Part shown: piece after piece, positions 4,471 to 14,180 of the stretch
Numbering within the stretch: the first letter of the stretch is position 1
Layout of the letters: every line of letters begins with the position of its first letter
Source: Deltaproteobacteria bacterium
GTDB taxonomy: Bacteria > Desulfobacterota > Desulfuromonadia > Desulfuromonadales > BM103
Direction of reading: 5' to 3'
NCBI GenBank assembly: GCA_024636155.1
Contig: JAGXHM010000038.1
Coordinates: 1-64,000 of the forward strand
Length of the DNA stretch: 64,000 nucleotides
Notes under the pieces: generated by a model
What the model was told of the DNA's origin: nothing
The model's database searches: none
Seen by the model: the letters and a program-made list of their open reading frames with translations, nothing else
Made by a program: the position numbers and the translations under genes

Positions 4471-5142
4471 TTATTTGCCTCGGCTCATGCGCTGAACAAT
4501 GTTCAGCATCTCCTGGCTGAAATTATCCATCTCACCAAGCAGCACGTTGACCTTGTTAACAAAGTGGTTGTATCCGATAACGGCCGGAATCGCCGCGACC
4601 AGGCCAATCGCAGTAGCGACCAACGCTTCAGAGATGCCCGGTGCAACAACGGCCAGTGAAGCGCTGCCACTGGTACCGATGCCGTGGAAAGCGTCCATGA
4701 TGCCCCAGACGGTGCCGAACAGGCCGATAAAAGGCGCTGCTGAACCAGTGGTGGCGAGGAAGGAAAGATACTTTTCGAGACGGTGGGTCTCCGATGTTGT
4801 GGAACGGCGCAGCACGCGGGCAACCCGTTCCTGCTCACCGAGATCGGCCACAAGGTTGCCCTCCTCCTGACCATCGACCTGGCGTCGATTCTGAGCCAAC
4901 TCGCGATAAACTTCACGAAAGAGAACTGTAAGCGGTGAGTGAAGATAATCATCCAACCCCTGACCGATAGCATCAAAGCGTTTCTTCGACCAGAAAAAAT
5001 CGAGGAAACGTTCCGAATCACGAATCGCGCGATGGATAATCAGCTGCTTGTAGAAAATAATGGCCCACGAGACCACGGAAAAATAGATCAGAATCAACAG
5101 GACCAGCTTGACGACCGGGCCGGCATTGAGTACCAGTTCCAA
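4471..5142 (-). CDS. tolQ: MotA/TolQ/ExbB proton channel protein TolQ
   Basis: APFIGLFGTVWGIMDAFHGIG motif. Likely start is TTG at 5142 preceded by GGAGAAAG; the longer ORF (to 5244) runs into a repeat. Confidence 0.88.
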   Translation of the reverse strand: MELVLNAGPVVKLVLLILIYFSVVSWAIIFYKQLIIHRAIRDSERFLDFFWSKKRFDAIGQGLDDYLHSPLTVLFREVYRELAQNRRQVDGQEEGNLVADLGEQERVARVLRRSTTSETHRLEKYLSFLATTGSAAPFIGLFGTVWGIMDAFHGIGTSGSASLAVVAPGISEALVATAIGLVAAIPAVIGYNHFVNKVNVLLGEMDNFSQEMLNIVQRMSRGK

Positions 5143-5192
5143 GGGCTTTCTCCTTAAACGACGGGATGTCGGGCCAGTGGCCCGTCTATCTG

Positions 5193-5333
5193 GTTTCTGT
5201 CCGGAAACCGCCCTTTTCCGTAATCTCAGCGTCAATCTGCGCATTTGATTGTGCGGCGTAAAGTACTACGCCTCCGCTCAAACGCTTGATTTCCTTGATC
5301 TTGCGAAAAATTGCTGGTTTCCAAATCAGAAAC
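5193..5333 (-). repeat. Copy A of a ~140 bp dispersed repeat with terminal inverted repeats
   Basis: Reverse complement matches 13247-13386 over its full length; ends GTTTCTGATTTGGAAAC / GTTTCCGGACAGAAAC. Confidence 0.9.
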
Positions 5334-5447
5334 TCAAGCTGTAACCATCCAGAGTTTCCGGATGGACACCATATCTATCAGATTTTGATTATCGGGTAGC
5401 GCTGACGGCAAGTCAACCGGACAGCACACTTTTCTCTCTACATGCCC

Positions 5448-12478: not shown

Positions 12479-13132
12479 CTACTTCTGACGCCCAACCCCA
12501 ACCTGTGGACAACGATCAACCACCGGACAAGCCGAACACCAGGCAGTCTGAGCCCGGCAGCATTGCCGACCATGAAAAATAAGAACGTGCGCAGCCTGCG
12601 TCCAACGCTCGGCAGGCAATAACTTACAGAGCTGCTTTTCCACTCCTTCTGCTGTGGATGCTGTCGTCCAACCGAGCCGCCCGGCAATCCGACCAACGTG
12701 GGTATCCACAACCATTCCTGGAACATCAAAAGCATTTCCCAAAACCACATTCGCAGTTTTACGACCAACTCCAGGTAAGGCGACCAGAGATGACATCTGT
12801 CGAGGAACTTCACCACTGTGCAAGGTTACCAGTGCTGTCGCACAGCCGATCAGGTTTTTTGCTTTATTCCGGAAAAATCCTGTTGAACGGATCAGATTTT
12901 CAACTTCTGCCACTTCTGCATTCGACATACTTACAGGATCGGGAAAGCGATTAAAAAGCTCTGCCGTCACCATGTTTACTCGAACATCTGTACATTGTGC
13001 AGAGAGAATTGTTGCAGCCAGAAGCTGCCAAGGGTTCTGATGGGTGAGGGCGCAATGAGCATCCTGATAGGTCGCTTCCAGACAATCGAGTGTCGCGAGT
13101 GCGTGGAGAGGTGTAATTCGGAGCGTTTTCAT
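12479..13132 (-). CDS. nth: Endonuclease III
   Basis: HhH LVALPGVGRKTANVVLGNAF, VDTHVGRIAGRLG; C-terminal Cys cluster. Confidence 0.95.
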   Translation of the reverse strand: MKTLRITPLHALATLDCLEATYQDAHCALTHQNPWQLLAATILSAQCTDVRVNMVTAELFNRFPDPVSMSNAEVAEVENLIRSTGFFRNKAKNLIGCATALVTLHSGEVPRQMSSLVALPGVGRKTANVVLGNAFDVPGMVVDTHVGRIAGRLGWTTASTAEGVEKQLCKLLPAERWTQAAHVLIFHGRQCCRAQTAWCSACPVVDRCPQVGVGRQK

Positions 13133-13246
13133 CGTTATGGGGTTGCTACCAGCTTCGCTTTAAATATAGTGATCAACCTTGGTCACAGATTTTTCCACAA
13201 CAGGCCAACTGGACTCATTTGTAAACCCTGGAAGGGCGCTATGTCT

Positions 13247-13386
13247 GTTTCTGATTTGGAATCTAGCACTTTTTGCAAAGTCCAGGAAATCAAGCCTTTG
13301 AGCGGAGGCGTAGTAATTTACGCCGCACAATCAAATGCGCAGATTGACGCCGAGCTTGCGGAAAAGGGCGTTTTCCAAAGAGAAAC
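13247..13386 (+). repeat. Copy B of the ~140 bp dispersed repeat
   Basis: Matches reverse complement of 5193-5333; 54-nt block TTTGAGCGGAGGCGTAGTA(A/C)TTTACGCCGCACAATCAAATGCGCAGATTGACGC differs at one position. Confidence 0.9.
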
Positions 13387-14124
13387 TCAGCCGGGTGCTG
13401 CTTCCATACGACTCGCAGCAAGTGGCCGCAAACGCACTGACCGACGCGTATCCGTAACCTGCACCGTCATCGTCAGCGGCAGATGACTGGACGCCTGGCG
13501 GGCCATGAAGCTGCGATTGATCGAAGCCTCAAGTACGCGCACTTCACCCCTCAAGTAAGCTCGATCACGCCCAAAAACCGGCAGGCGGGAGGGGTAAGTG
13601 CCTCGCCAAAGCGGCCGGCGGGTTCGACGCAGGACTGAAGCTAACTCCAGGTTACCTGCGCCGCAGAAATAGTCGGCAAAATCACCCAGAATCAGCGTCG
13701 GGCAAACCAGAGACGGATGACCAAGCAGTTCCGGGCCAAGCAGCTTCGCAATCTGGAGACTACGAAAACGGGGGAAACTGTCAAGACAGACGTTGAGCAG
13801 ATGCATACGCTTACCACCAAGTTCCACATCGGCGCGCAGACACTGACCACCGAAACCAAGATCGAATTTTTGCACAGCCTTGAGTGGGAAAAAAGAAAGG
13901 TAGGCAAGCGTACCGCCGCCACCCGCATCACGAAACACACTGAGGCCGAGACGTTCTGCCAAATAGGGCAGGATATCGAGATGATGGGCACTACCGAACT
14001 CCTGGATAGCGATGATATCGGGAGCGGTATCTGCGATCACATTCAAGATTCGGTCAGGATTAATCTGACCGTCACTGCCACGGCAATGCTGTATGTTGTA
14101 CGTCATAATGCGAGCGGTGGTCAT
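13387..14124 (-). CDS. Endonuclease/exonuclease/phosphatase family protein
   Basis: IMTYNIQHCRG, PDIIAIQEFG, LILGDFAD, SSHLPLTM motifs. Confidence 0.85.
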   Translation of the reverse strand: MTTARIMTYNIQHCRGSDGQINPDRILNVIADTAPDIIAIQEFGSAHHLDILPYLAERLGLSVFRDAGGGGTLAYLSFFPLKAVQKFDLGFGGQCLRADVELGGKRMHLLNVCLDSFPRFRSLQIAKLLGPELLGHPSLVCPTLILGDFADYFCGAGNLELASVLRRTRRPLWRGTYPSRLPVFGRDRAYLRGEVRVLEASINRSFMARQASSHLPLTMTVQVTDTRRSVRLRPLAASRMEAAPG

Positions 14125-14146
14125 ACCTACCTCGCTACGGTTCGTC

Positions 14147-14180
14147 AAGTCTGGCAGATTTCAGGGAATCTGCCAGACTT
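14147..14180. other. Perfect 14-bp stem hairpin
   Basis: AAGTCTGGCAGATT tcaggg AATCTGCCAGACTT; no clear U-tract on either side. Confidence 0.75.

Follow-up and report, generated by a model that had tools for sequence, protein, structure and literature searches.

The repeat that lies upstream of tolQ is a MITE that belongs with an ISNCY insertion sequence, and its hairpin interior is unusually conserved. Taking all the evidence together, we are highly confident that the best explanation is an intergenic MITE mobilised by ISNCY, one copy of which landed in the tolQ leader. The features that are relevant in the window, i.e. the whole stretch of 64,000 nucleotides that was analysed, are given at the beginning of the next section.

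Anatomy of the element and its place in the tolQ leader

5193..5369, minus strand: MITE copy A, complete, 177 bp, 97% identity to the consensus of the genome copies
5354..5369, minus strand: left terminal inverted repeat (TIR) of copy A, GTGTCCATCCGGAAAC, identical to the ends of an insertion sequence in genome G009
5193..5208, minus strand: right TIR of copy A, GTTTCTGTCCGGAAAC in plus-strand reading
5205..5320, minus strand: core hairpin of copy A, model R1, 121.5 bits
5374..5379, minus strand: GATAGA direct repeat to the left of copy A, 4 nt off the element, a blurred target duplication
5185..5190, minus strand: GATAGA direct repeat to the right of copy A, 2 nt off the element
13211..13386, plus strand: MITE copy B, older, with a decayed left end
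13260..13374, plus strand: core hairpin of copy B, model R1, 98 bits
4471..5142, minus strand: tolQ, TTG start, with start and ribosome site kept in relatives
5150-5155, minus strand: tolQ ribosome site AAGGAG, conserved in relatives
5388..5416, minus strand: predicted sigma-70-type promoter of tolQ, TTGACT-17-GATAAT, with a predicted start near 5381

The element as a whole folds as a single long hairpin. The TIRs are 16 bp long and are present on both sides of the element; the left TIR of copy A forms, together with the adjacent bases, a separate small hairpin. An earlier note on this DNA had described a repeat of about 140 to 165 bp in which the reverse complement of 5193-5333 matched 13247-13386. 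This match is borne out (about 89%) and the central palindrome that was indicated is present, but the block fell 12 nt short at the left end of the 177-bp element. The ends do carry inverted repeats, as the note held, although the pair that it pointed to (GTTTCTGATTTGGAAAC) is an internal repeat and the true TIRs are those at 5354-5369 (minus strand) and 5193-5208. Likewise, the weaker extension of about 24 nt does belong to the repeat, but it is really what remains of the left end of copy B after decay. An exact flanking duplication is absent at copy A, where the GATAGA repeats are found beyond the ends instead. Copy B lies upstream of nth (12479-13132, minus strand) and abuts the stop codon of a minus-strand gene (13387-14148). 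A protein-coding reading of the repeat was dropped; an open frame does run along the consensus, but copy B shows a 1-nt indel relative to copy A within the core, and changes that preserve the pairing dominate.

The ten other genomes of the genus are all syntenic around tolQ, and the element is absent from every one of them, i.e. the empty site whose search had been proposed was found. The promoter hexamers, their spacing and the ribosome site of tolQ are kept in 11 of the 11 genomes of the genus, and this conserved promoter, just upstream of the insertion, backs the location in the tolQ leader that had been suggested. Given a predicted start at about 5381, the leader would have roughly 239 nt, 177 of which correspond to copy A; its RNA fold reaches -102.7 kcal/mol, 6.7 sd below shuffled sequences. 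The tolQ frame as called mechanically (4471-5244) opens with an ATG at 5244, inside the MITE; since the relatives indicate the TTG at 5142 as the start, the automatic annotation of tolQ may be wrong. A palindromic insertion of another kind, about 170 bp long (CAGCCTGTCGGACAATCA ... TGATTGTCCGACAGGCTG), was observed in the same leader in two sister species, represented by G009 (loci L248/L257) and G010 (L253), therefore the tolQ leader took at least two different inserts.

Dispersal, target sites and the probable ISNCY transposase

The genome to which the window belongs is represented by an assembly of 2.94 Mb that is 72% complete and whose contigs end in repeats. In this assembly, the blastn search that had been proposed returned at least 40 matches to copy A (E 1e-59 or better, 87-100% identity), and about 53 places of the element were counted once TIR matches and the inspection of extra loci were added. 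The sequence beyond the element ends is unrelated between genome copies. Target duplications, which were also among the proposed checks, were analyzed in 68 delimited copies from four element-rich genomes, 65 of which have a length of 176-177 bp. Identical 6-bp flanks were found in 36/68 copies, as compared with 3.4% in mismatched left/right flank pairs, and flanks matching in at least 5 of the 6 positions in 48/68, as compared with 19% in mismatched pairs. The consensus of the duplicated hexamer is TARYTA in most copies.

The placement of 88 copies was determined relative to genes defined by simple ORF calls, in which small errors are possible. Among these copies, 24 are co-directional with both neighbouring genes, 28 are opposite to both, 20 have convergent and 14 divergent neighbours, one is located in a predicted ORF, and no placement was possible for the last one; hence, 86 of the 87 placed copies are intergenic. 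The TIR-bearing copies show no orientation bias (24 same vs 28 opposite, p=0.68), and the TARYTA sites that bear an element avoid the interior of ORFs when compared with the remaining sites of this motif (p=1e-4). We also considered whether the TIR-bearing form selects stop codons as targets, given that 23 of the 69 duplications share bases with a stop codon, yet this was rejected because at TARYTA sites the overlap is 28% vs 18% in the control (p=0.31), so that the motif and the avoidance of genes suffice. Short versions of 51-73 bp, with both TIRs but without the core, were also observed (L173, L174, L176), two of them with exact target duplications.

The 177-bp element has no transposase gene, it is a derivative of ISNCY and not an ISNCY insertion sequence itself. 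The mobiliser was sought among the DDE transposases of eleven related genomes, whose flanks were searched for the MITE ends. One insertion sequence was found in G009, a genome of the same genus; it comprises 1,663 bp, has perfect 16-bp ends GTGTCCATCCGGAAAC flanked by TAGATA/TAGCTA, and encodes a protein of 462 aa recognized as an ISNCY-family transposase (NF033593, E 6e-143; DDE_Tnp_1). A search for this family in 136 genomes of the order gave seven above the curated cut-off, only one of which is of the same genus (the sister species). One full-length ISNCY element was inspected in each of these seven genomes; all of them are bounded by the same TIR (at most 1 mismatch to the pattern) and 5/7 show perfect 6-bp duplications. 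The ISNCY elements (NCBIfam NF033593) and the MITE thus have the ends in common (23 bp at the left and 16 bp at the right) as well as the 6-bp target duplications of the TANNTA type. In contrast, the insertion sequence is about 1,660 bp long and includes the transposase, whereas the MITE lacks it and has an unrelated interior, so that within the elements the ends alone are held in common. Given these common ends and duplications, an ISNCY transposase acting in trans very probably moved the MITE.

The genome that carries the window gave no hit for an ISNCY transposase gene, possibly because the assembly is incomplete or because the insertion sequence was lost. Candidate pairs of TIRs separated by 1-3 kb were looked for in G000 and G002, none was convincing and the sole candidate corresponded to two separate copies. 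In Desulfobacterales (L061, L085, L143 and others) there is a variant with the ends GTGCCCATCCATAAAT / ATTTCTGGATGGAAAC in which the core and the 6-bp duplications are kept; this suggests that there is another ISNCY lineage, whose ends correspond to those of the variant.

Under the proposed mechanism, an ISNCY transposase made elsewhere would recognise the MITE ends and insert the element at TARYTA-like hexamers, duplicating 6 bp. Selection would then remove the copies within genes, leading to intergenic accumulation in either orientation. One copy would have landed between the tolQ promoter and the ribosome site, and judging from the arrangement of these signals the tolQ transcript very probably carries the MITE hairpin at its start; an effect of the hairpin on tolQ mRNA decay or expression is plausible.

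The core hairpin, with and without TIRs

The covariation of the core was analyzed in an alignment of forty-four diverse sequences. RNAalifold proposed 32 pairs, 18 of them with changes on both sides; 94% of the cells pair, vs 36-47% when the alignment is slid and 81% when it is shuffled, and there are 190 double-changed cells vs 65 in the shuffles. The sequences CAAGRTCAAGG and ACGCMGAGATT are conserved around internal loops, flanking variable stems. A compensatory swap of a helix was identified in the copies of one 5,136,364-bp genome, in which CGTCCTGGC with GCCAGGGCG replaces CGCAAGRTC with GAGATTGCG. G-U pairs outnumber A-C mismatches on the modelled strand (64 vs 25), a count biased by the fact that the structure was chosen on that strand; for the same reason little weight is given to the RNAalifold energy, which is -31 kcal/mol for the modelled strand vs -21 kcal/mol for its complement. 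The earlier note had raised a conserved structured RNA along with a MITE; the covariation supports the structured part, be it as RNA or as DNA. This covariation is stronger than a plain MITE needs, and it can be the result of selection on an RNA, of selection on a DNA hairpin, or of templated correction of the palindrome. At gathering thresholds, Rfam detected just two tRNAs across the window and no family at all at 12 related loci, so the repeat matches no Rfam family. In some Geobacter hairpins (L069, L091, L098, L146) the apical loop is interrupted by an additional repeat-like sequence (CACCCTATCCCTCTCCC...), that is, the repeats are nested.

The core model matches 97/136 genomes of the order and 88/297 genomes drawn across the phylum, and a DNA search found the core in 120/195 genomes drawn from the class. 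Among the carriers are Desulfuromonadales, Geobacter, Geotalea and Desulfobacterales; a few matches in MAGs labelled as other phyla may be binning errors. Two architectures were distinguished, type I with TIRs and duplications, and type II that consists of the core alone and is common in Geobacter; the same Geobacter genomes hold both TIR sites and bare cores. Neither target duplications nor TIRs were found at the type II bare cores. In 45/81 type II copies (L318, L327 and other Geobacter loci) a neighbouring gene that points toward the element has its end 7-31 nt beyond the 3' end of the core, mostly 8-12 nt, hence right at the hairpin, and on the other side of the core the same adjacency to a stop codon occurs in 7/81. 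In Geobacter sp. H2geo and AOG1 several bare cores are located between genes of an arginine biosynthesis cluster with argD, argF, argG and argH, as named from the translations.

A tentative and rather unlikely extension is that the core hairpin functions as a module in its own right, with a role in the host, e.g. in the processing or stability of operon mRNAs, and that an ISNCY MITE carries the core as cargo, or spread from the core, across the phylum. If true, the module would be a structured nucleic acid that is useful to the host and transposon-borne too. We consider improbable that the repeat as such is a cis-acting structured RNA, i.e. a leader regulator or a riboswitch-like element, kept for the control of the adjacent genes. 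The strong covariation, the excess of G-U pairs (with the bias mentioned) and the preferred orientation in which the bare core of Geobacter abuts stop codons could be accounted for in this way; nonetheless, a DNA hairpin or templated palindrome correction can also give covariation, and the modelled strand of the bare copies is mostly opposite to the genes. Moreover, the copies with TIRs have no orientation bias, carry target duplications and are next to unrelated genes, and the insertion is missing at the same place in the sister species. A REP/BIME-like palindrome, moved by RAYT or by the single-strand mechanism of IS200/IS605, would be palindromic, intergenic and of high copy number as is this repeat, and the bare-core form without target duplications would fit it too; but the TIR-bearing copies have two matching 16-bp ends and 6-bp duplications in common with an insertion sequence that has a DDE transposase, and the duplications already speak against this origin for the TIR-bearing form, making it very unlikely as a whole. 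Finally, the window contains just two copies, which agrees with a simple recent segmental duplication or with two unrelated palindromes alike by chance, an idea of negligible probability that is refuted by the many copies in the genome and their unrelated flanks. The MITE-like nature proposed from the letters of the sequence is upheld by the TIRs, the 6-bp target duplications, the approximately 53 dispersed intergenic copies, the empty site in relatives and the transposase-bearing insertion sequence with the same ends.

Comparison with known elements and significance

Correia elements, ERIC and YPAL are hairpin MITEs that are short, palindromic, non-coding and intergenic, some of them being within transcripts. 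By their description, these elements are set apart from the one analyzed here by their ends, target duplications and transposase families.

MITEs are already known as a kind, and the bare core was reported earlier in G. metallireducens, as a 24-member family of 'predicted short RNA' (Gmet_R1005 and others; PMC2700814, Figure S1). The central palindrome of this family, GRCGTAGCGCTGCTACGCC, is the apical stem of the core, the Geobacter cores align with the present ones, and the members are intergenic, in lysine/arginine gene clusters; the bare type II copies fit this published family. In contrast with our results, the family was described as an RNA prediction alone, and the text of that article mentions neither TIRs nor target duplications, nor a transposase or a mobile form. 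The second related case is Chunjie (Chen et al. 2008, as cited in PMC10969869), a MITE that occurs in Geobacter uraniireducens in tens of intergenic copies of 178-235 bp, with TIRs and direct repeats. According to this description, which is the sole basis of the comparison, Chunjie resembles the present element in that its host is a related species, in having TIRs as well as direct repeats, and in its intergenic location, and differs from it in that the reported range of lengths excludes 176-177 bp; copies of 176 bp of the present element occur in the 5,136,364-bp genome mentioned above. As far as the portions of the literature considered here go, and with Chunjie compared by description alone, the TIRs, the duplications, the cognate insertion sequence family, the phylum-wide range, the covariation and the connection of the mobile form with the bare one are new; if Chunjie proves identical, part of these findings was already known.

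These results connect a 'predicted short RNA' that is multicopy in Geobacter with a mobile element for which the ends, the target and a likely transposase family are known. They also provide a testable case of a MITE carrying as cargo a structure that compensatory changes maintain, and of the leader of the tol-pal envelope operon being rewritten by a MITE. In addition, they call for caution, since target duplications and orientation need to be checked before hairpins of this sort are counted as regulatory RNAs.
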